DNA of 64,000 nt, from contig CP070638.1 in the NCBI GenBank assembly GCA_020354025.1, positions 345,897 through 409,896 of the forward strand. Direction: 5' to 3'. The position numbers and the translations under genes were made by a program. Shown in pieces: positions 44,319 through 57,953 of the stretch. The stretch is from Fidelibacterota bacterium (GTDB taxonomy: Bacteria > Fidelibacterota > Marinisomatia > SCGC-AAA003-L08 > TS1B11). Position 1 is the stretch's first letter. Every line of letters begins with the position of its first letter. A model generated the notes under the pieces. It was not told the origin of the DNA. It searched no databases and saw only the letters and a list, made by a program, of their open reading frames with translations.

Positions 44319-46877
44319 TTACAGCCGTACCTGCAGCTCCACGAAGTAGCTCCGTGTCGCGCCGGGCCAGTAGCCGTCCACGCGATAGGGCGGCCAGCCG
44401 TAGGAATCATCATAGTAGGTGTAGCCGAAAGTCTCGTACAGGACATCGAAAACATTCTCTACTCGCAAACTTAAGACGGGATGAATAAATCCTATTGACG
44501 GCAGCTTGAATCTTGTTCCCAGGTGAATCAATGTGTAAGGATCAATTGCCAGGGAGTCTATATTATCAACATGAATAAATTGCTTCCCTGCATGATTGAC
44601 CTGAATCCATATTTCTATTGAGTTCAGCGGTATTACAGCAGTTCCTTTGGTCTGGATCATAGGAAAAGCTGGCATTATCTTGCCGCTGTAATCCGTAAAT
44701 CCACCCTCTCCCTTATGACCAAAAGCAGCCTGTTGTAGCTCGACAAAGTGATTGTCAGCATAAGCCAGGTTTCCACCCAGCCGTAGCCAGGAAGCGGGAG
44801 CAGCTTCCAGAGATATTTCCAAACCCTGGTGCACCGTTTTCGGCGCATTTCCCTGCAATACTTCATCAGCGTCGTAGTACCTGTAGGCAAAGGGAATAAG
44901 CTCATCCCTGAAGTCCATGCGGTATAGATTCAACTTCCCGCTGACGACAGGCAGTCTGAACCGCACACCGGCCTCATAGTCTATCAGGAATTCTTCCATG
45001 ACCAGGGGATTGGCGTAATCGGCCTCCATATCTGTGACTGCGGGGACCATGTCAGGATCATCGTGGTCATAGATATCCCCATCCGCCGGTTCCCGGTGTC
45101 CGGTAGACAGGTTGGCAAAGATGGATACAGCATCGTTCACCCGGTAATTGAGACCCAGGTGGGGATCGATGAAGTCGTACTTCAGCTTGAAGTCATAACC
45201 TTCGGTGAATGCCCCCATCACGTCCTGATCGAATGTATACCGATGTCCGAGATAACGCAGGTCAGCCATGACGCTCAACCGATCAGTGAGATTCAGGATT
45301 GAATGTAGATAGAAAGAAAAGGTGCTCTTTCTGCTACGGTCCGTATAATAGCGGTGGTCCTTTTCAATGCCCAGCCCTCCGAGCAGCTCAGGGACTTTCC
45401 CGAAGTGCTCTGATGTGTAGAACCGAGCGTCACCGCCTAAAGTCACCCTTCCTAATCGAAAGGGATAGCTGTATTGATAAACCAGGCCGGAGTATCCGTT
45501 CTTTAACCACTTTCGTCGAATGAGTCCCACTTCATGAACAGAATTTGTATCTATAAATGCAAACAAGTCATAAAGTGATAGGAATTCAAAGAACTCCCCT
45601 TTCTCCTCAGCGAGCTCTTCCGGCTCCGTCTCTTCCGGATCGTAATCTTTGCCCTTGAACTGCTCATAATAGCCATCACCTTTTACGGTATAGAGGGTCA
45701 GGTTCAGCAGTCCGCCGCCAACCTTCCTGCTGTGCTGTAGCGAAATGATGGATTGAGTGAAAATATCCTTGTTGGCGTCACCTAAACCGCCGTTCCAGGT
45801 GGGATCGGCGTAGTAGTTATAACGGCGATCCTCACGGTCATCCAAATCATAGCCATATAGGGGAATAATCCCCTCCCACGAGAACGCAGTCTCCTCATAA
45901 CCGCGGATTGCCTCGAGGCGGGTCAGCGTGGTGGCCGTGCTCTTCTCCAATCCGGCGTGAAAGGATTGTTGAGCGGTGCCGCTGCCGATGCGGTAACCTT
46001 CACTGGCCAGGTCGCTGATTCGACCATAAAGCGTCCAGCCCTGCTCCTGCCAGGGACCGCCGGCATAGCTGAGAGACAGCTTACGATTGGGCAGGTCCAG
46101 ACCCTTTTCGGTAAAGTTGCCATACCCGGCGCTGAAGGCAAACCCGGCCGGGAGGGCTCTGAAATCGGTAGCCAGATTCACTGTGCCACCAAATACCCCG
46201 CTGCCGTAGAGTGAGTTACCCACCCCCCGCTGCAGCTGGATATCGCTGGTGGCGGCTAGTATATCGCCGTGATCTACCCAGTAGACGGCATGAGCTTCGG
46301 GATCATTGAGGGGAATACCATTTAGGTAGACACCAATGCGATCCTGTGAGAAACCCCGGATTTTAAGATAGGTATAGCCCACTCCGTTCCCCGCGTCCGA
46401 GTAGGCATAGACTCCCGGCTCACCGGCCAGTACCATGGGCACGTCTTGGTGGCTGTAGGTCCTATCGATCTTGTCCCGGTCCAATGTGGAAAATGCTATC
46501 GGTGTCTGCCCTTCAATAGCCCTGGTGGCCGTCACCAGCACTTCTTCCCCGCTCAACACAGTGGGCTCAAGATAAACTGCGCCTAGCTCCTCATCTGCTG
46601 CGGTGATCATCTTATCGGCGAAACCGATACGTGTGATCCATAGCGTAACAGGTAGTATGCTTACGTTCAGACGGAAATTCCCCGCCCCTGAGGCGAACGT
46701 GCCCTCCCCCGTTCCCTCAACCAGTACGTTGGCGTAAGGCACCGGGCCCTGGGTCACACTGGAAAGGACCTGGCCGGTGAGAGTGAATTGCTGTGCTTCC
46801 AGGTATAGGGGTAGTAGGAACCATAAAGGATGTAAAAACCCCTTACAGATAAGGGGAAAACGGTAAGCGTATCTCAT
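44319..46877 (-). CDS. TonB-dependent outer-membrane receptor, probable thiamin/TPP uptake
   Basis: An 852-residue outer-membrane receptor. A signal peptide is followed by a carboxypeptidase-regulatory-like domain (FTLTGQVLSSVTQGPVPYANVLVEGTGEGTFA, residues 30-110). The plug domain has IKVRGF-type KIRGFSQDRIGVYLNGIPLNDPEAH and GVGNSLYGSGVFGGTVNLAT. The large beta-barrel ends in the aromatic YFVELQVRL. The TPP riboswitch whose 3' end supplies its SD (46883-46962) makes thiamin, TPP or a precursor the most likely ligand. Bacteroides has a known thiamin receptor of this kind. The TonB/ExbB partners are not in the window. A terminator-like hairpin follows the stop. Confidence 0.93.
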   Translation of the reverse strand: MRYAYRFPLICKGFLHPLWFLLPLYLEAQQFTLTGQVLSSVTQGPVPYANVLVEGTGEGTFASGAGNFRLNVSILPVTLWITRIGFADKMITAADEELGAVYLEPTVLSGEEVLVTATRAIEGQTPIAFSTLDRDKIDRTYSHQDVPMVLAGEPGVYAYSDAGNGVGYTYLKIRGFSQDRIGVYLNGIPLNDPEAHAVYWVDHGDILAATSDIQLQRGVGNSLYGSGVFGGTVNLATDFRALPAGFAFSAGYGNFTEKGLDLPNRKLSLSYAGGPWQEQGWTLYGRISDLASEGYRIGSGTAQQSFHAGLEKSTATTLTRLEAIRGYEETAFSWEGIIPLYGYDLDDREDRRYNYYADPTWNGGLGDANKDIFTQSIISLQHSRKVGGGLLNLTLYTVKGDGYYEQFKGKDYDPEETEPEELAEEKGEFFEFLSLYDLFAFIDTNSVHEVGLIRRKWLKNGYSGLVYQYSYPFRLGRVTLGGDARFYTSEHFGKVPELLGGLGIEKDHRYYTDRSRKSTFSFYLHSILNLTDRLSVMADLRYLGHRYTFDQDVMGAFTEGYDFKLKYDFIDPHLGLNYRVNDAVSIFANLSTGHREPADGDIYDHDDPDMVPAVTDMEADYANPLVMEEFLIDYEAGVRFRLPVVSGKLNLYRMDFRDELIPFAYRYYDADEVLQGNAPKTVHQGLEISLEAAPASWLRLGGNLAYADNHFVELQQAAFGHKGEGGFTDYSGKIMPAFPMIQTKGTAVIPLNSIEIWIQVNHAGKQFIHVDNIDSLAIDPYTLIHLGTRFKLPSIGFIHPVLSLRVENVFDVLYETFGYTYYDDSYGWPPYRVDGYWPGATRSYFVELQVRL

Positions 46878-46882
46878 ATTTA

Positions 46883-46962
46883 TTTCCCTCCGCTGGTATT
46901 ATCCAGTTCAGGTTCAAAGGGTTTGATCTCAGCCATCCGGCCATTGACGGACAGCACCCCAT
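46883..46962 (-). promoter_or_regulatory. TPP (thiamin pyrophosphate) riboswitch
   Basis: Minus-strand reading gives GGGGTGCT (46960), then GGCTGAGATC (46934-46925), and then the long near-invariant 3' block AACCTGAACTGGATAATACC...GCGGAGGGAA (46914-46884). These match the thi-box order: P3 side, CUGAGA loop, P4/P5 with the pyrophosphate-binding sequence. GGAGGG (46891-46886) in the last block is 8 nt from the receptor ATG, so ligand binding can directly hide the SD; control is thus likely at translation. P1 pairing just outside this block is weak to my eye. Confidence 0.95.
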
Positions 46963-47069
46963 TTACGTTTTGAAGTTATTACTAATTTGACACTATTCTC
47001 AAGGAAATCGGGGCACGAATCGGACACGGAACTCTCGGAGGGAAGACTTTCTTGACCGTTCTGCAACTA

Positions 47070-47120
47070 GCGGCTTAAAGGGATTGAACCCCTAATGGCC
47101 GCGTAGTTACCTTTACGGCC
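47070..47120 (+). promoter_or_regulatory. Alternative hairpins in the leader of the OPT transporter gene
   Basis: GCGGC (47070-47074) plus TTA and GGG segments can pair with CCC, TAA and GCCGC (47089-47102). The same GGCC at 47097-47100 can instead pair with GGCC at 47117-47120, with GTA/TAC inside. The two folds exclude each other and end 11 nt before the SD. TTGACC (47053) with TTAAAG 17 nt later is a possible promoter. If transcription starts there, only the second fold would be complete. The function is unknown; it may be chance. Confidence 0.3.
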
Positions 47121-47142
47121 AACTTATCTACGAGGTATGCTC

Positions 47143-49253: not shown

Positions 49254-50309
49254 ATGGAAATGGATCTGGACTTTTTCCGGCGGCTCCCCAAAGCGGAACT
49301 GCACTGCCACCTGGACGGATCGCTGCGTCCTCAAACAATCCTCGATCTGGCTGCACGGCAGAAGGTGGATCTGCCCACCAGAGACGCCGGCGAACTACAG
49401 GCTATGATAACGATTGGCGATCGCATCGGCTCGCTGGAGGACTACATCAACCACTTTCAACTTCCTCTACAAGTGCTCCAGACCCCGGAGGCTCTGGAGC
49501 TGGCGGCCTACGAACTGGCGGAGGACGCCTGGGATGACGGGGTACGCTATATGGAGGTACGCTACTCCCCAATCCTCCACACCCGCCAGGGGATGACAAG
49601 CGCCGAGTCCATTGAGGCGGTAAAGCGCGGATTGGGCAGGGCCGAAGACGACCTGGGTATCCGCACGGGGATCATCATCTGCGGTATCCGCAACATCTCA
49701 CCGGAGGTATCGCTGCGTTTGGCGGACCTGGCGGTCCAGTTCAAACACAAGGGGGTCGTGGGTTTTGATCTGGCGGGGGCTGAAGAAAATTTCCCCGCCA
49801 AGCACCACCAGGAAGCCTTCTTCCTGATCCTGAAGAATAATATCAACACTACCCTCCACGCTGGTGAAGCTTTTGGGCCTGAAAGTATTCACCAGGCCGT
49901 TCACTATTGCGGCGCTCACCGCATCGGACACGGCACCCGGCTACTGGAAGACCAGGACCTGATGCACTACGTCAACGACCACCGCATTGCCCTGGAGGTC
50001 TGCCTTACCAGCAACGTGCATACTAAGAGCGTACGTAGTCTTAAAGAGCATCCCTTTAAGTTCTATTTCGACCAGGGTATTAGAGTAACGCTCAATACCG
50101 ACAACCGCTTGGTATCTAATACCACTCTCTCACAGGAATACTTGACCGCTATGGAGACCTTCGGATTGACCCTTGATGACTACCGTGATATCATTATTAA
50201 CGGATTTAAGTCCAGTTTCATGAGCCATCAGGATCGGCGGACAGTTATTAAATCGGTAGTGGATGAGCTTGAGGCTGAGTTCGAGGTCACACCCCTGATT
50301 ATCGCCTGA
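49254..50309 (+). CDS. add: Adenosine deaminase (or adenine deaminase-like)
   Basis: A 351-residue metal-dependent deaminase of purine salvage. The metal/catalytic segments are LPKAELHCHLDGSLRP (HxH), HAGEAFGPESIHQAV (His, Glu), HRIGHGTRLL and the LNTDNRLVSNTTL segment, where LNTDDP is usual (Asp is kept, the next residue is Asn). Length matches bacterial Add. Adenosine or 6-aminodeoxyfutalosine could be substrates: similar sequences in FCB bacteria serve either pathway, and I see no menaquinone genes nearby. The start has no clear SD. Its stop overlaps the end of the convergent PorZ-like gene by 11 nt. Confidence 0.9.
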   Translation: MEMDLDFFRRLPKAELHCHLDGSLRPQTILDLAARQKVDLPTRDAGELQAMITIGDRIGSLEDYINHFQLPLQVLQTPEALELAAYELAEDAWDDGVRYMEVRYSPILHTRQGMTSAESIEAVKRGLGRAEDDLGIRTGIIICGIRNISPEVSLRLADLAVQFKHKGVVGFDLAGAEENFPAKHHQEAFFLILKNNINTTLHAGEAFGPESIHQAVHYCGAHRIGHGTRLLEDQDLMHYVNDHRIALEVCLTSNVHTKSVRSLKEHPFKFYFDQGIRVTLNTDNRLVSNTTLSQEYLTAMETFGLTLDDYRDIIINGFKSSFMSHQDRRTVIKSVVDELEAEFEVTPLIIA

Positions 50310-52662
50310 TCACTGCCACCTTGCCAACACCGGACTTACCGTCGGGAAGGTAGCCCGTAACCAGATAGACTCCCGATCCCACCCATTCGCCGGCGCTGTT
50401 CCTGCCATCCCAGGCTGCCTGGTATCCCTGGACACTGTTATCAGTAGCGCTCAGCTCTCTGACGAGACGGCCGGTTGCTGTAAAGACCTTTACCGAAGAT
50501 CCCTGACGCAGACCGTCGATGATCAGAGCCTTTTCGGAGGGAATGCGGTAGGGACTGGGAAAAATCACCATCCCGCTATAGTCCTTCAGCTCTTCCCGGA
50601 AAGGGATCTTGAGCGCCGAGATGCCCTTCGTAGTGGCAAGGTAAGCCACTCCTTCATCATTATCCAAGTATACATCCAGAATTTCATCCGTTGGAAGTGT
50701 ACTGTTGCTGGAATTGAGTCCCTCTACGCTGGGCCAGAATGTGGTATTGTCCAGCAAGACCCAGAGCCCGTGCTGGGGAGTTGTGATCCATTTATTGTTC
50801 TGGGCATCCACACGTATCTTTGACCCCTCGATGAAGGGTACGTCACTCAAGTAGGGACCAAAATCGGTAAATGGACTGAGAGTCAGCTCCGGACCCACCA
50901 GATAACCCATCACACCATCAGGTGAAACCGTCCATAGAACCTGATTATGATCAAATATGAGCGACCAGACGGTGTTTGAATGGTCTGCCTCGAGCCGGAT
51001 AGATTTCAATATCCACTGATCATCCGACTTGTCACCTAGCGTACCACCATGGTCCAGAACGGCAATCCCCCCCGTGCCCCAGCCTTCACGTACCTCGCTG
51101 CCAATCCATACCCGACCTTCCCTGTCAAAAGCAATCTCGGTAGGCGCCTGATTGAGTTTATCGTAGCTGTCAGAGGTGGAAAAGTGGGTCCAGCTTGTTT
51201 CGGTCGTGTAAACCGCTAGTACATCCTGCCGCAGCTCACAGAAAGGATTAGCAATCCAGACGTTGCCTTCCGCGTCAAGCGCCATATGCCGGATGGTGAT
51301 ATACCCGTCATCAGCCAGGCCGTCTAGTCTGCCATCGGTTGTATCATACGTAAAATAATCGGCCACATCGTTGACGTTCACCTGAAGGATACCACCCCCC
51401 ATTGGGTAATTGCCTTTAAAACCTACCAGGAGTTCCCCGTTCGGTAGCTGGAGCAGGTTCCAGGACTGCTTGCCACGGTAGAAAATCGTGTCGGCCAGGA
51501 AGTAGCGGCTTTCAGCCAACAGGGCGTTTCCATGGATACGATCATCATCCGGACCGGATAAGATACTATAGCCGGGAATCAGATTGTACCATGATTGACC
51601 ATTGTAGCGAGCAACACCGGACTTCCCGGCCGCGACCAGTTCACCTGTAGCGAGCTTCAGAACGGCAGTGTAATCATTGCCGGCTAGAGTGTTAGGGGCC
51701 AGCGAGGTCCAGGATCTGGTGCGATGATGATAGCGTGCTAGACCCTGATCCCGAATTATGGCGTATCCTTCCATTGCATTGTCGCCATCTATGTATGCCG
51801 ATACTCGCCCTCCGGCTTGTTGAGAGCCGAACAGACCGCCAGACTTGGTTAGGAATCGTAGATACCTGGAATAGGATATTACAAAATCTCCATTTTGGCG
51901 TCTTGTCAGGTGGTATAGATCGCCGCCCCCGAACGTTCGGTGCACCTGCCAACCATATTCAGCACGGTGATGAAGCTCGTAGGGAACCATGAAGTAATGG
52001 CCCGTCGAATCCACCAGGTACTGTATAATGTCAGTCCGCTCCGGTGTCATCATTTGCCAGGTAGCAGGGTCTTTCAGGTTGGCCTGGACGTGATCATTCC
52101 CGATGACACCGAAGTTGGTGGTCACAAAAAGGGAATCGCCCCAAAGGTCTAGGTCTACGATCTTAGTAACAGCGGAGGGAAAATTGCGATAAGTGTCAGC
52201 GAAGCGGTATCCTTGTCCATTCCACTTTAGCTCCATGATACCAAGGTCCTGCCCCTGGCGGAAGGCGGCGAAGCCCCGATCTGCTCCCGCTGCGATGCGA
52301 AGTATCTCATCTAAGCCGAGGTCGATCACATCCACTTTGCCGGTGTTCAGGTTCACCGCCTGTATTATGCCTTGGGGTGGGGCGCCCCCCAGTAACATCC
52401 AGTCGCCGGCAATGGTCAAATAGGTCAGATCAGTATAGATCAGACCATCGGCAATTGCCAGGGTTGAAAAAGTATCTTCATGTGGATCATATACCAGTAC
52501 ACCACCCCCGGTAGCGGCAAAAACCCGGCCCTCATAGTAGTCAAGGGCCTGGGGGCTGATGGTTGAGGTATAGTGCCGCCACTCCCCTACGCTGCTCTGT
52601 CCCTCAGCAGAGCTTAACGGTATGCAGAGTAGAACAGCAGAGACAAGGAGCCGTAGGATCAA
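50299..52662 (-). CDS. PorZ-like secreted beta-propeller protein with sorting domain
   Basis: A 787-residue protein with a signal peptide (LRLLVSAVLLCIPLSSAEG), then VGEWRHYTSTISPQALDYYEGRVFAATGGGVLVYDPHEDTFSTL, the start of two-component-regulator-type propeller repeats (RVWIGSE, VWIANPF, NKWITTPQHGLWVL, GVAYLATTKGISAL). The last about 85 residues (FPSPYRIPSEKALIIDGL, then VKVFTATGRLVREL, GSGVYLVTGYL, KVAVIRR) are a FlgD-Ig/type IX-type sorting domain. The layout matches PorZ of the type IX system (propellers plus CTD). Its start overlaps ribH by 4 nt, so it is translationally coupled to riboflavin genes, which is unexpected. Confidence 0.85.
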   Translation of the reverse strand: MILRLLVSAVLLCIPLSSAEGQSSVGEWRHYTSTISPQALDYYEGRVFAATGGGVLVYDPHEDTFSTLAIADGLIYTDLTYLTIAGDWMLLGGAPPQGIIQAVNLNTGKVDVIDLGLDEILRIAAGADRGFAAFRQGQDLGIMELKWNGQGYRFADTYRNFPSAVTKIVDLDLWGDSLFVTTNFGVIGNDHVQANLKDPATWQMMTPERTDIIQYLVDSTGHYFMVPYELHHRAEYGWQVHRTFGGGDLYHLTRRQNGDFVISYSRYLRFLTKSGGLFGSQQAGGRVSAYIDGDNAMEGYAIIRDQGLARYHHRTRSWTSLAPNTLAGNDYTAVLKLATGELVAAGKSGVARYNGQSWYNLIPGYSILSGPDDDRIHGNALLAESRYFLADTIFYRGKQSWNLLQLPNGELLVGFKGNYPMGGGILQVNVNDVADYFTYDTTDGRLDGLADDGYITIRHMALDAEGNVWIANPFCELRQDVLAVYTTETSWTHFSTSDSYDKLNQAPTEIAFDREGRVWIGSEVREGWGTGGIAVLDHGGTLGDKSDDQWILKSIRLEADHSNTVWSLIFDHNQVLWTVSPDGVMGYLVGPELTLSPFTDFGPYLSDVPFIEGSKIRVDAQNNKWITTPQHGLWVLLDNTTFWPSVEGLNSSNSTLPTDEILDVYLDNDEGVAYLATTKGISALKIPFREELKDYSGMVIFPSPYRIPSEKALIIDGLRQGSSVKVFTATGRLVRELSATDNSVQGYQAAWDGRNSAGEWVGSGVYLVTGYLPDGKSGVGKVAVIRR

Positions 52663-53126
52663 GAGAGCTTCGACGCCAGACTGATCATCTCAATGAGGCA
52701 CTGCATTGCCTCAGCTCCCCTGTTACCAGCCTTGGTGCCGGCACGTTCCAGAGCCTGGTCAAGGGATAGGGTGGTTAATACGCCGAAAGAAATAGGCACG
52801 GAAAGCTGCAAGGAGAGATCTGTCAGGGCGCGCGTGACTTGCTGTGCCAGAACATCGAAATGGAGGGTGCTCCCCTTCACCAGAGCTCCCAAAGCCAGAA
52901 CACCATCATACTTCCCGCTGTCGGCCAGGCGCTTGACGGTGTTTGGAATTTCGAACGACCCCGGCACCCAGACAACAGTCAGTTTGCCAGGATCACCACC
53001 ATGCCGAATAAACATGTCTTCGGCTCCCGCCAGCAGCTGCTGGGTAATCATGCTATTGAACCGGCTTGCCACCACAGCGATAGTCCGGGCTTTGACGGTC
53101 AGTTCACCAATGATAGTAGACGCCAT
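52659..53126 (-). CDS. ribH: 6,7-dimethyl-8-ribityllumazine synthase
   Basis: A 155-residue enzyme, normal length, joining 5-amino-6-ribitylaminouracil with dihydroxybutanone phosphate. It has IAVVASRFNSMITQQLL, VWVPGSFEIPNTVKRL, GALVKGSTLHFDVLAQQVTRAL and PISFGVLTTLSLDQALERAG, with the usual conserved His in the LHFD segment. An SD (GGAG) is near the ATG. It is the last rib gene of the cluster and overlaps the PorZ-like gene. Confidence 0.97.
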   Translation of the reverse strand: MASTIIGELTVKARTIAVVASRFNSMITQQLLAGAEDMFIRHGGDPGKLTVVWVPGSFEIPNTVKRLADSGKYDGVLALGALVKGSTLHFDVLAQQVTRALTDLSLQLSVPISFGVLTTLSLDQALERAGTKAGNRGAEAMQCLIEMISLASKLS

Positions 53127-53135
53127 GATAAACTC

Positions 53136-54347
53136 CTATTGTAAAATGAGATGTCCTAGCTTATCTCGTTTGGTTTCCAGATAAAGCTTGTTTTCGGCAT
53201 GGGCTGGGATCTCGACTGGTTCCCGATCCACCACCTCCAGACCGTATCCATCCAGACCGACGATCTTCCTGGGATTGTTCGTCAGCAGCCGCAGCTTCCG
53301 CACGCCCAGGTCTCTCAGTATCTGAGCGCCTATGCCATACTCCCGCAAATCAGACTTGAAACCGAGGCTCTGGTTGGCTTCTACCGTATCCAGACCCTTT
53401 TCCTGCAGGCTATATGCCAACAGCTTGTTTTTCAGGCCGATCCCCCGCCCTTCCTGACGTAAATATACCAGCACCCCCCGTCCCTCATCGTTGATCCTCT
53501 GAAGGGCTCTCTCGAGCTGTGGCCCGCAGTCGCATCGGAAGGAACCGAAAATATCTCCGGTGAGGCACTGGCTGTGAACCCGCACTAGAACTGGGTCATC
53601 ATCTGAAAATTCGCCTTTGACCAGGGCAAGGTGCGTATCATGATGGATATTGTCCTGATAGACAGCCAGATTGAACTCGCCGTACCTGGTAGGGAATCGC
53701 AACGTCGTCAGCAATTCCACCAGCTTCTCCCTGGTGCGTCGGTAGGCGATGATCTCGGCCACGCTGATGATTTTTAGCCCGTACTTCTTGGCGATTGCTT
53801 CCAGCTTCTCACCTCGGGCCATGCTGCCATCCTCATCCACGATCTCTACCAGCAGGGCCATCGGCTGGGCGTCGGTCTCCTCGGCTATAGCCAGCCGCGC
53901 CAAGTCCACGCTGGCCTCAGTATGCCCCGCCCGCTGGAGCACCCCTCCCGGCTTGGCCACTAGCGGGAACATATGACCCGGTCGCGCCAGATCCTGTGAC
54001 TGAGCATTCGGATCAAGAAGAACCTGGAGCGTCTGCCAGCGGTCTTGGGCGGAAATACCGGTGGCAGTTTTCTCCACAGCGTCCACGCTCACGGTAAAGG
54101 CTGTCTCGTGTAGGGCAGTGTTCCGGGGCACCATGGGAGGAAGCCTCAGCTGCTGGGCTCGCTCTTTGGTAAGCGGTACACAGATAAGACCCCGTCCAGT
54201 GCGCATCATGAAGTTGATGTCTTCCGGCCGGGCTTTCTCCGCCAGCATGATAAAATCCCCCTCATCCTCACGCTCCTTGTCGTCCGTGACGATGACCATC
54301 TTGCCGGCCCTCAGATCGTTCAGTACATCTTCTACTAATTCAAACAT
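53136..54347 (-). CDS. ribBA: 3,4-DHBP synthase / GTP cyclohydrolase II fusion
   Basis: A 403-residue fusion supplying both riboflavin precursors. The N-terminal DHBP synthase has MVIVTDDKEREDEGDFIMLAEKA, TGRGLICVPLT and GHTEASVDLARLAIAEETDAQPMALLVEIVDEDGSMAR. The C-terminal cyclohydrolase has the zinc cysteines in VRVHSQCLTGDIFGSFRCDCGPQL, then GRGVLVYLRQEGRGIGL, and the RLLTNNPRKIVGLDGYGLEV block. Length is normal. It follows ribE by 2 nt, so it is co-translated. No FMN riboswitch is seen in front of the operon. Confidence 0.98.
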   Translation of the reverse strand: MFELVEDVLNDLRAGKMVIVTDDKEREDEGDFIMLAEKARPEDINFMMRTGRGLICVPLTKERAQQLRLPPMVPRNTALHETAFTVSVDAVEKTATGISAQDRWQTLQVLLDPNAQSQDLARPGHMFPLVAKPGGVLQRAGHTEASVDLARLAIAEETDAQPMALLVEIVDEDGSMARGEKLEAIAKKYGLKIISVAEIIAYRRTREKLVELLTTLRFPTRYGEFNLAVYQDNIHHDTHLALVKGEFSDDDPVLVRVHSQCLTGDIFGSFRCDCGPQLERALQRINDEGRGVLVYLRQEGRGIGLKNKLLAYSLQEKGLDTVEANQSLGFKSDLREYGIGAQILRDLGVRKLRLLTNNPRKIVGLDGYGLEVVDREPVEIPAHAENKLYLETKRDKLGHLILQ

Positions 54348-54349
54348 GC

Positions 54350-55003
54350 TCAGCTTTCGCCAAATCCCCAGCTGCGCAGGATCCCTAGGTCAATATCTCC
54401 ATACTCTTCATCAGGTTCCGTCTCCAGGAAACGCTCAAGGTAGCGAGCAACGATGTCGGTCTCAACATTCACCGGCTCACCTGCCTGCTTTTTACCGAGG
54501 ATTGTCTGTGACAGGGTAAAGGGAATGAGCGCAACTGTAAGACCGGCATGCGAGACATCTACTATGGAAAGCGATACCCCGTCAAGCGCGATGGAGCCCT
54601 TGGGAATACAGTAGCGCAGCCAGTAGGTGTCAACGGTAACAGTCATGCGCACGTCTCCGTGATCCACAGTGACATTGTTGATGTACCCCACCGTCTCTAC
54701 GTGCCCCTGCACAACGTGCCCGTGGAACCGGTCCATCGGTCCCATTGCTCGCTCCAGATTTACCTGGCTGCCCGGTGCGATTTCGCTGAGATTGCTCTTT
54801 TCCAACGTCTCGGAAACCACCTGAACCGTAAAATCCTCTTCAGATTGGTCAACCACAGTCAGGCATACACCATTGACACTGATACTGTGTCCCGTTTCCA
54901 GGTCCTCCATTATCTTCTCACCGGTAATTATCAGCGAGTCATATCCATTTCCATGAGTCCGGCTGACTACACGACCGATCTCTTCAACTATACCTGTAAA
55001 CAT
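54350..55003 (-). CDS. ribE: Riboflavin synthase, alpha subunit
   Basis: A 217-residue enzyme that dismutates lumazine to riboflavin. It has two lumazine-binding repeats: MFTGIVEEIGRV, GHSISVNGVCLTVV, then FHGHVVQGHVETVG and GSIALDGVSLSIV. The C-terminus carries DIVARYLERFLETEPDEEYG. Length and repeat order are normal. The start overlaps the ribD stop by 1 nt (coupled). Confidence 0.97.
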   Translation of the reverse strand: MFTGIVEEIGRVVSRTHGNGYDSLIITGEKIMEDLETGHSISVNGVCLTVVDQSEEDFTVQVVSETLEKSNLSEIAPGSQVNLERAMGPMDRFHGHVVQGHVETVGYINNVTVDHGDVRMTVTVDTYWLRYCIPKGSIALDGVSLSIVDVSHAGLTVALIPFTLSQTILGKKQAGEPVNVETDIVARYLERFLETEPDEEYGDIDLGILRSWGFGES

Positions 55004-56175
55004 TAAGCGTTGTTCCTCGCTATAGAACTTTGATTTAGCATTCCCAATAATGAATGGCCGGGCTGCGCCACAACCAGTTGGTCCCCGCCAATCTCCTCAT
55101 CTTTGACCACACTCCAACCCTCAGGAATGACTAACGCGTTGCGCAAACCTGCCTCCCGCTTTACTTCTGGGTCCGCTTCAAGGGGCGCAGTGAACAGGAC
55201 CACCTCATCCATCAAATCGGCTCGAAGAAATTCTCGGTGCAGGGTTGGTCCGCCTTCAACCAGGAGTGATGTGATGCCCCGCTCCCCCAGCGCATCCAGT
55301 ACCTCCGCCAGGTCAACCCCGGCAGCTGAAGGAGTTACTTTTATCCGCTCGCCCCAAGGGGTTACCCCGCACTCACCCTTGGTGGTAATAACCATAGTCG
55401 GGGCGGCACCGTCATGAAAGAGCCGCAAATCACCGGGCAGCCGCAAGCGGGTGTCCAGCACTATACGCCGGGGATTGTGACCAGCCACATCCCGGACGGT
55501 TAGCTGCGGGTCGTCTATCTCCGCTGTTATCCGGCCAACTAGTATCCCATCCGCTTCGGCACGCAGACCATGGACCCAGCGTCGGGACTCAGGAGACGTA
55601 AACCATTTGCGCTCCGGACTGGCCGCCACAAAATCATCTCTGGTGCGGGCCACTTGAAGGATTACATACGGCCTGCCGGTTAGGATCCACTTGGAGAAAT
55701 CCCTGATCAAGCGGATCCCCTCTTCAGCCAGGATGCCTTCGGCTATTTCAATACCAGACGACTTCAGCTGCGCTATCCCGCAGCCGTTCACCCTGGGATT
55801 GGGATCGCGGACAGCTACAACCACCCGCTTTATACCGGCACCCACCAAAGCATCAGTGCAAGGCGGAGTCTTCTTGCCGGCAAAGCTGGTTGCGCAGGGT
55901 TCAAGAGTAACGTAGGCGGTGGCACCCCGGGCCTTCGTACCTGCATCCAGAATAGCATGGGTCTCAGCGTGGGGACCGCCGAAACGCTCGTGATACCCCT
56001 CCCCTACTACTTGACCGTCACGAACGAGCACACAGCCGACCATCGGGTTTGGGCTGGTGAGCCCCATACCGCGTTTGGCCAGTGTAAATGCCCGGGACAT
56101 ATAGTGCTCATCTTCAGCCAGTCCATGATGGTGGATGCCTGATTTCCCGGGCTTGACGGTTGTTTCGGTCCCCAT
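55003..56175 (-). CDS. ribD: Riboflavin biosynthesis deaminase/reductase
   Basis: About 390 residues. The N-terminal deaminase has NPMVGCVLVRDGQVVGEGYHERFGGPHAETHAI, then VTLEPCATSFAGKKTPPC (zinc His, Cys, Cys). The C-terminal reductase has RPYVILQVARTRDDFVA, DGILVGRITAEIDDPQLTVRD and SLLVEGGPTLHREFL. The long frame starts at 56238, inside the site-2 protease gene. ATG at 56175 has AAGG 6 nt upstream and falls just after that gene's stop, so I chose it. The ATG at 56181 is adjacent to the SD and less likely. First rib gene of the operon. Confidence 0.95.
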   Translation of the reverse strand: MGTETTVKPGKSGIHHHGLAEDEHYMSRAFTLAKRGMGLTSPNPMVGCVLVRDGQVVGEGYHERFGGPHAETHAILDAGTKARGATAYVTLEPCATSFAGKKTPPCTDALVGAGIKRVVVAVRDPNPRVNGCGIAQLKSSGIEIAEGILAEEGIRLIRDFSKWILTGRPYVILQVARTRDDFVAASPERKWFTSPESRRWVHGLRAEADGILVGRITAEIDDPQLTVRDVAGHNPRRIVLDTRLRLPGDLRLFHDGAAPTMVITTKGECGVTPWGERIKVTPSAAGVDLAEVLDALGERGITSLLVEGGPTLHREFLRADLMDEVVLFTAPLEADPEVKREAGLRNALVIPEGWSVVKDEEIGGDQLVVAQPGHSLLGMLNQSSIARNNA

Positions 56176-56183
56176 ATTCATCC

Positions 56184-57254
56184 TTATGACATCTTTAAAG
56201 GTACAGGAATAAAACACAAGATGAAAACAAACAGACATACGAGACCGATGATCAATTCGTACGCTGTAAGTGGTCGGTTAACGTCCGGGACCGGCGGATG
56301 TTTCACCGTACGCATTAGTATCAGGATCAGAAAGCCCCAGAAGAGCCAATTGGGCGATAGAAATATGCCCATGGGTATGAGAGCTACCAGTATGGCTCGC
56401 CCCAACCATTCCTGCCGGTCACCGAGAAGGGCGTAGGCAATATGGCCGCCGTCTAACTGAGCCATCGGCAGGAGATTCAACATTGTCACCAGTAAGCCAA
56501 TCCAGCCCGCAAAGCCCACTGAGTGTAAAAGAATATCTTCTCCGGCCTCCAGACCGGGAAACATTAATGCCGTTGCAGCCTTCATCAGCAGGCTGTCCCC
56601 CAAAAAGAATCCCCCCGCTTCGATCTCGACAACGGTGGATAGATGCAGACCGTAGATCAGTGCGGGCACGGCTACCAGAAAACCGGCAATGGGACCCGCG
56701 GCACCGATCTCCAATAATGCCAGGCGACTGGGAATAGGTCCCCGCATCTTGATAAAGGCTCCAAAGGTGCCAATGATAATGGGTGGTGGTGCCGGAATGA
56801 AATAGGGCAGTGAGACATCGACCCGGTGGCGACGGGCAAAAATGTAGTGACCGGACTCGTGAATCCCAAGAATCGCCATGAGAGTAAGGCTGAAAGGCCA
56901 TCCCTGGATGATGGTCCAGGGTTCCTTGAAGATGTTGTGTCCATTCAGGATAGCCCCCGCTGCCAGAGTGGTCAGAACCGTTGCCAGGAAAAGGAGAACG
57001 TGCGCTCGCGACAGTCGGGGGTAGGTTCGGCGAATACGCTCCCGCAGTATCACATACGACCGGCCATTCCCATGATGGTAGTTTATATCCAGATCCAATC
57101 CCTCCAAGGCTGCCCGATCGGCACCTTTCTCAGTCCCATCTATTAGGTGGTAGAAAACAACCTCACCGTCGCCCAGCTTTCCCCGCCTGTCAATGATCGC
57201 TACCCGGGACAGGGATTGGATCCCGTCTTCAATCTTTGCAGATGCAGTCATCAC
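56184..57254 (-). CDS. Site-2 protease family (M50) membrane metalloprotease
   Basis: A 356-residue intramembrane zinc protease. The zinc motif is LGIHESGHYIFARRH (HExxH), the third ligand is in LNLLPMAQLDGGHIAYALLG (NxxPxxxLDGG), with a GPIAGFLVAVPALIYGL helix and a conserved PLAFI-like FIKMRGPIP segment. About six or seven helices. The N-terminal soluble part (KIEDGIQSLSRVAIIDRRGK) is not a PDZ domain that I can recognise, resembling EGY1/YwhC-like proteins. It precedes ribD by 8 nt and likely shares its transcript. Substrates unknown. Confidence 0.92.
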   Translation of the reverse strand: MMTASAKIEDGIQSLSRVAIIDRRGKLGDGEVVFYHLIDGTEKGADRAALEGLDLDINYHHGNGRSYVILRERIRRTYPRLSRAHVLLFLATVLTTLAAGAILNGHNIFKEPWTIIQGWPFSLTLMAILGIHESGHYIFARRHRVDVSLPYFIPAPPPIIIGTFGAFIKMRGPIPSRLALLEIGAAGPIAGFLVAVPALIYGLHLSTVVEIEAGGFFLGDSLLMKAATALMFPGLEAGEDILLHSVGFAGWIGLLVTMLNLLPMAQLDGGHIAYALLGDRQEWLGRAILVALIPMGIFLSPNWLFWGFLILILMRTVKHPPVPDVNRPLTAYELIIGLVCLFVFILCFIPVPLKMS

Positions 57255-57862: not shown

Positions 57863-57953
57863 CGGAAACGTGTCGGAGTCGAACCGACCATCCGTCAACC
57901 GACGGATCAACAGTTTTGAAGACTGCGGCGCCCACCGGGACGCATACGCTTCC
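57863..57953 (-). tRNA. selC: tRNA-Sec (selenocysteine, anticodon TCA)
   Basis: A 91-nt tRNA on the minus strand. It has the unusual 8-bp acceptor (GGAAGCGT with ACGTTTCC, one G-U) seen in selenocysteine tRNAs and a 5-bp T stem (GTCGG/CCGAC with TTCGACT). The anticodon loop CTTCAAA gives TCA. There is a long variable arm (TCCGTCGGTTGACGGA), a long D arm, and discriminator G. It serves SelA/SelB-dependent reading of UGA. None of selA, selB or selD is in the window. It sits tightly between two coding genes. Confidence 0.95.

Follow-up and report, generated by a model that had tools for sequence, protein, structure and literature searches.

Thiamin pyrophosphate (TPP) riboswitches that carry the Shine-Dalgarno (SD) sequence within the aptamer are described as a named category, direct translation attenuation (Barrick and Breaker 2007, PMC2258182), and a list of predicted thiamin receptors has been published (PMC2771747). 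In Bacteroides thetaiotaomicron, the TonB-dependent thiamine receptor OMthi (BT2390) is reported to be controlled by a TPP riboswitch, and the loss of OMthi together with biosynthesis leads to a higher thiamine requirement (PMC5613172). A locus of Caldithrix abyssi with a TPP riboswitch, a TonB receptor, a sodium symporter and thiamin pyrophosphokinase (TPK) has been proposed for thiamine uptake (PMC5317091), and for the E. coli thiC riboswitch, transcriptional pausing and Rho-dependent termination are described close to the start codon (PMC5234074). Here we analyse a stretch of 64,000 nucleotides from contig CP070638.1 of a Fidelibacterota bacterium (class Marinisomatia), called the window throughout, in which a TPP riboswitch on the minus strand runs into the start of a gene for a TonB-dependent receptor. 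As judged from the sequence and its relatives, this is probably a direct-type OFF switch that controls an outer-membrane thiamin receptor. A hairpin inside the receptor open reading frame (ORF) is not included in that statement and is weighed separately.

The covariance model RF00059 matches positions 46868-46971 of the minus strand over model positions 1-105, with 61.5 bits against a gathering cut-off of 54.3 (cmscan on the whole window, repeated on 46700-47140). The near-consensus thi-box that the original prediction placed at the receptor is thus borne out, with a score above the gathering cut-off and not below it. The match is the only one in the genome (one contig of 3,404,291 bases, 95% complete), and therefore the search for further thi-boxes gave none besides that of the receptor. 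In minus-strand order, GGAGGG (46891-46886) is followed by AAATAAAT and then by the receptor ATG (46877-46875), and the spacer between GGAGGG and ATG is 8 nt. The assignment of this GGAGGG as the SD is based on the sequence, the Rfam structure and the SD usage of the genome, where SD-like 4-mers were found before 27 of 91 genes versus 8 of 91 in a control interval further upstream. The original prediction that the thi-box holds the GGAGGG of the receptor also stands, but its description as the 3' strand applies only to a part: AGG (46889-46887) is the 3' strand of P4 and pairs with CCU (46912-46910), while the SD as a whole is only partly in P4 and is located outside P1 in the Rfam structure. 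The predicted spacing of 5 nt before the ATG has to be replaced by 8 nt after GGAGGG, and the Rfam match itself extends beyond the start codon. Since the AGG of GGAGGG is the 3' strand of P4, the conserved 3' element of the aptamer doubles as the SD. No separate expression platform is seen in the sequence between the aptamer and the ATG. With the SD within the aptamer and the start codon no more than 15 nt from the core (8 nt after GGAGGG), the locus belongs to direct translation attenuation.

The helices of the aptamer were examined in 25 aligned class members. P2, P3 and P4/P5 are paired in 89-93% of cells. Helix P3 (46932-46955, minus strand, arms 46955-46948 and 46939-46932) reaches 93%, and both sides have changed in 6 of its 8 pairs. 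The covariation score of 0.220 was reached by none of 500 shuffles, and slid versions of the structure gave 0.075-0.115. In P4, whose 5' strand CCU (46910-46912, minus strand) is part of the conserved ACCUGA, three pairs are invariant in 25 of 25 members; a fourth pair is formed in only 6 of 25, and many members, including the window, have an SD-extending purine at that place. On the other hand, P1 has 2 of 5 standard pairs in the window and is paired in 36% of cells in the alignment. Over 113 loci it has 2.17 of 5 pairs compared with 1.98 (sd 0.08) when the partners are swapped, and the pairing energy of the flanks is no better than that of swapped flanks (-1.47 versus -1.44 kcal/mol). Helix P1 is not maintained in the class. 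Outside the class it is also weak, with at most 2 pairs in 12 of 21 riboswitches from other phyla, and therefore P1 loss is not special to the class, its reading as the trait of a lone lineage was rejected, and P1 was not taken as a requirement for RF00059 membership.

P1 is usually the switching helix, and since it is not kept here, the masking would have to be done by the ligand-bound core itself. In a switch that has neither P1 nor an expression platform, the simplest mechanism, we infer, is that the TPP-bound core hides the SD. Without TPP, the short P4 (CCU:AGG) would open, or the 30S subunit would invade it, so that the receptor could be made. When TPP bridges the two sensor arms, P4 would be locked and the SD hidden, and translation would stop.

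The gene behind the riboswitch (44319-46877, minus strand) encodes a TonB-dependent receptor of 852 aa, a probable thiamin receptor according to its domain matches and to its homologues behind TPP riboswitches. The plug domain (PF07715, 49.3 bits) and the barrel (PF00593, 105.5 bits) are both above their cut-offs, and a carboxypeptidase-regulatory-like domain is also present. A TPP riboswitch match was found in 116 of 171 class genomes and lies above the cut-off in 103 of them. There are 129 such places, of which 12 in genome G090 were set aside, leaving 117. The start codon, taken as the first ATG, GTG or TTG that opens a frame of at least 60 aa or one running off the contig, lies no more than 15 nt after the aptamer AGG in 113 of these 117. 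The four others are in G053, where the contig ends; G151, where the aptamer is cut and the start is 11 nt away by eye; G085, with a degenerate aptamer of 42.2 bits; and G160, with no qualifying start nearby. There are 114 riboswitch-led ORFs of more than 60 aa, including two from G090. The receptor profile matches 105 of them with E<1e-3, another 6 look like receptors by eye, and L057, L069 and L160 are something else.

The riboswitch-led receptors at L040, L043, L060, L065, L164 and L167 are too divergent for the profile of 19 sequences, which suggests that another receptor subtype replaced the original one under the same switch. At L069 (5163-6110) of genome G016, which is 8% contaminated, a second TPP riboswitch match of 45.0 bits, below the cut-off, stands directly before an ORF, whose protein we take by eye to resemble ThiY, which binds hydroxymethylpyrimidine (HMP).

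For homologues outside the class, the alignment of the 19 receptors was used as the query, and the best 80 of at least 547 hits were considered. The top ones are mostly from Candidatus Neomarinimicrobiota or Marinimicrobia, which identifies the clade as Neomarinimicrobiota, and further hits among the 80 belong to Bacteroidota, Calditrichota, Latescibacterota, Fermentibacteria, Zixibacteria, Eisenbacteria and others. When 34 of these 80 loci, all outside the class, were searched with Rfam, 22 had a TPP riboswitch, with 23 matches in total. The start codon is within 15 nt in only one of the 22 receptor-leading riboswitches (L292), and it is at least 27 nt away in the others. These distances were obtained by script for 20 riboswitches and by eye, with the frame unchecked, for L275 (about 27 nt) and L293 (about 47 nt); the first copy in L243 was left out as it does not lead the receptor, and L265 nearly duplicates L270, as L281 does L285. 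Almost all riboswitches of the class thus follow the direct design, which in this sample is unusual for homologous receptors elsewhere.

Genome G090 (2.6 Mb) has 12 TPP riboswitch matches (L152-L160), only one of which leads a receptor. Seven of the copies without a receptor constitute a repeat family that keeps the SD, the ATG and the ORF hairpin, while some of the aptamers are damaged. Four of the seven also share about 100 bp upstream. For the most part, the homology among the receptor-less copies goes no further than the T-run; the exception is one pair of nearly identical copies, in which it continues to the contig ends.

The ORF hairpin of the window, with the arms CCCCTTA/TAAGGGG followed by TTTTT, lies at 46834-46856 of the minus strand and was picked up in the scan for terminator-like sites as a possible terminator or pause element. 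It starts 21 nt past the A of the ATG, has 7 pairs, 4 of which are G-C, and has the form of an intrinsic terminator, i.e., a G+C-rich stem with a T-run. We see about an even chance that it has no regulatory role and that the riboswitch is purely translational. The evidence of the window itself is moderate, with one terminator-like site found in the region compared with 0.6 expected from shuffles, and a p value of 0.040 in the synonymous recoding test. With the scan used, 90 of the 102 distinct riboswitch-led ORFs in the class do not have a hairpin in that place. Few gene ends have terminator-like sites either: 6 of 114 in the genome of the window and 15 of 316 in six genomes (G000, G042, G046, G049, G002 and G052), which is little above the mid-ORF sites of a scan with a shorter interval, in which 0 of 102 gene ends had one. 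Given this scarcity, most transcripts in this clade may end by another route. A hairpin without any role is harder to reconcile with its conservation at the nucleotide level in some lineages, described below, and with its retention in the receptor-less copies of G090.

The hairpin might alternatively be a separate and less certain layer of control added to the hiding of the SD, in which the stem and the T-run act as a terminator or as a pause for RNA polymerase unless a ribosome follows. In the presence of TPP, ribosomes would not load, the hairpin would form and transcription would stop soon past the start codon; without TPP, the ribosome would melt the hairpin. We consider this possible, although we lean against it. 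The position of the hairpin speaks for it, as a terminator-like hairpin occurs within the first 130 nt of 16 of the 102 riboswitch-led ORFs, and in 12 of the 102, the window included, it starts 18-23 nt after the A of the ATG. Among 355 control ORFs of eight hairpin-bearing genomes, which were not filtered for overlaps and thus include some that are not real genes, 21 have a hairpin and 2 have one starting at 15-26; for 79 signal-peptide-like controls, the counts are 7 and 1. However, the 12 loci are non-independent, as several derive from one ancestral sequence, and signal-peptide codons alone also predict a T-run.

Synonymous recoding, which was applied to 98 of the 102 loci after short or N-containing ORFs were dropped, gave p values of 0.002 (three loci), 0.005 and 0.007, and values of at most 0.05 in 18 of the 98. 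The receptors of G046 and G049 are 68% identical while their fourfold third positions are only 19% identical (n = 159), and despite this, nine identical codons in a row cover the hairpin and T-run, which is the longest run of the alignment. In the other six of the seven receptor pairs, the hairpin does not stand out as the one longest stretch of unchanged codons. The loop-closing pair is A-U in the window and G-C in the second copy of G002. These comparisons indicate that the ORF hairpin is conserved at the nucleotide level in some lineages. A second layer of control would also agree with the receptor-less copies of G090, where SD, ATG and hairpin are retained and the homology mostly ends at the T-run, with the report that ribosomes can prevent intragenic terminator hairpins (PMC5021804), and with the hairpin-assisted pause described near the E. 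coli thiC start codon (PMC5234074). Taken together, the element would be a P1-less TPP riboswitch of about 150 nt with two checkpoints: the SD would be hidden by the core, and transcription would be halted by a terminator or pause hairpin in the ORF unless a ribosome melts it. In one relative, this cassette would have given rise to at least seven receptor-less copies. We regard this fuller description as doubtful.

The compound carried by the receptor was approached through a survey of thiamin genes in 60 genomes, including that of the window. ThiC (PF01964) was matched in none of the 60 genomes, with 13 of 14 positive controls recovered. PF02581 was matched in 9 of the 60 genomes, only once above the cut-off, and not in the genome of the window. 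TPK is present in 53 of the 60, and the TPK of the window's genome scores 125.9 bits against a TIGR01378 cut-off of 76.4. A sodium/solute symporter gene starts 14 nt after this TPK gene (L204:7998-10096), and a symporter adjoins TPK in 14 of 30 loci, or 11 of 27 genomes examined. Thiamin import by the receptor, which the original prediction had named as an importer of thiamin, TPP or a precursor, appears well supported on these grounds: there is no match for ThiC or PF02581, TPK stands beside a symporter, and homologous receptors recur behind TPP riboswitches. The likely uptake system is the receptor, the sodium symporter and TPK, with the TPK-linked symporter as the candidate inner-membrane carrier. 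The receptor would take up thiamin, the symporter would move it inward and the kinase would make TPP, which would close the loop. The receptor and the TPK-symporter pair are at separate places in the genome, and the sole TPP riboswitch is that of the receptor. The PnuT-type transporter suggested earlier did not hold up; PF04973 has no match in the genome of the window and only partial matches in 6 of the 60 genomes, 5 of them above the cut-off, and PnuT was rejected as the inner-membrane carrier.

Import of something other than thiamin itself, be it a precursor, a thiamin phosphate or a different compound, is unlikely. This idea draws on the fact that the riboswitch senses TPP and not the transported compound, and on the solved structures nearest by profile, which are YncD/pyrroloquinoline quinone (PQQ) and siderophore receptors with no thiamin receptor among them. 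On the other hand, the genome has TPK and no match for PF02581 or ThiC, and thus HMP or thiazole alone would be insufficient by the known route.

Several points weigh against the direct-type OFF switch on a thiamin receptor. The RF00059 score exceeds the cut-off by 7 bits only, and an aptamer without P1 might have weak binding. The short P4 could stay closed or open whatever the TPP level. Free-energy folding of the aptamer alone does not recover the canonical structure, and for the full leader the SD is paired with the ORF instead at minimum energy. For the thiamin part, the symporter scores 120.5 bits, which is below the TIGR00813 superfamily cut-off of 184. The ThiG search matched 58 of the 60 genomes with short matches, including in the genome of the window a match of 51 positions above the cut-off (27.2 bits) and one below; the short matches may be other TIM-barrel enzymes, and this search was not used. 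The ThiL search, also not used, matched 54 of the 60 genomes, none above the cut-off. Since the genome is 95% complete, the absence of thiamin genes is no proof. The folding of the leader also bears on a classical antiterminator, in which without TPP the 3' strand of the aptamer is bound by the hairpin's 5' arm in the ORF (GGGAAA/TTTCCC) and with TPP the aptamer takes this strand and the terminator forms. Although the minimum-energy fold of the window's leader (-40.9 kcal/mol) has this pairing and the hairpin forms when the aptamer helices are forced (-35.2), we rejected the antiterminator as highly improbable, because the pairing beats synonymous recodings in only 1 of 97 loci (p 0.050; 97 of the 102 were taken, with short or N-containing ORFs dropped) and in 1 of 13 hairpin-bearing loci, has p 0.684 in the window, and would cover the SD in the supposed ON state.

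The neighbours of the receptor are polA downstream and a divergent OPT transporter and adenosine deaminase, with a PorZ-like protein and riboflavin genes also nearby. The OPT transporter was weighed as a candidate partner of the receptor. No thi gene was identified among the neighbouring ORFs of the window, in agreement with the original prediction that none is adjacent. The PorZ (type IX secretion)-like protein at 50302-52662 (minus strand) scores 153.4 bits with NF052228, under the cut-off of 260. The riboflavin genes at 52659-56238 (minus strand), which we take from their similarity to be ribD, ribE, ribBA and ribH, have no flavin mononucleotide (FMN) riboswitch at the gathering threshold. 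A selenocysteine tRNA was found at 57864-57953 of the minus strand (RF01852, 75.4 bits), and therefore the genome may make selenoproteins.

The analysis predicts that members of the Neomarinimicrobiota depend on imported thiamin; it identifies the probable receptor and puts forward the sodium symporter next to TPK as the candidate inner-membrane carrier. For RNA biology, a very small switch with neither P1 nor an expression platform would be a clean object for the study of SD masking by the ligand only. If the ORF hairpin is indeed a terminator or pause, there would be a transcription checkpoint inside the gene that is read by the ribosome. Among the matches listed for riboswitch terminators that lie in coding regions or are coupled to translation, none of the titles and abstract openings shows a TPP riboswitch whose ORF contains an intrinsic terminator, and the passages considered on Marinimicrobia and riboswitches do not describe the present case.

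When compared to the described systems, the locus is like the direct translation attenuation type as presented in PMC2258182, with the ribosome binding site in the purine-rich conserved 3' region of the aptamer, a start codon within 15 nt and no added platform. It departs from that type in its almost general use for a single receptor throughout a class (113 of 117), in its unmaintained P1 and in the in-ORF hairpin of 12 of 102 members. Like OMthi, the receptor is a TonB-dependent receptor under a TPP riboswitch, a likeness drawn without direct comparison of the proteins; however, the host of OMthi is described with biosynthesis and PnuT (PMC5613172), whereas the genome of the window has no match for ThiC or PnuT. 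The same three proteins, i.e., receptor, symporter and TPK, occur in Caldithrix abyssi, but the riboswitch there is reported 163 nt upstream of the receptor (PMC5317091), while that of the window contains the SD, and in the genome of the window the receptor and the TPK-symporter pair are apart. With E. coli thiC, the window shares probable translation control by TPP and a hairpin near the start codon, although a checkpoint role is here only possible; thiC is described as Rho-dependent with a separate sequestering stem (PMC5234074), whereas the window has its SD inside the aptamer and a hairpin with a T-run inside the ORF. The pairing of riboswitch and receptor and the TPP switch with the SD in the aptamer are therefore already published kinds; what is added here is that the form is nearly fixed in a class, that P1 is unmaintained and that the ORF may hold a second checkpoint.

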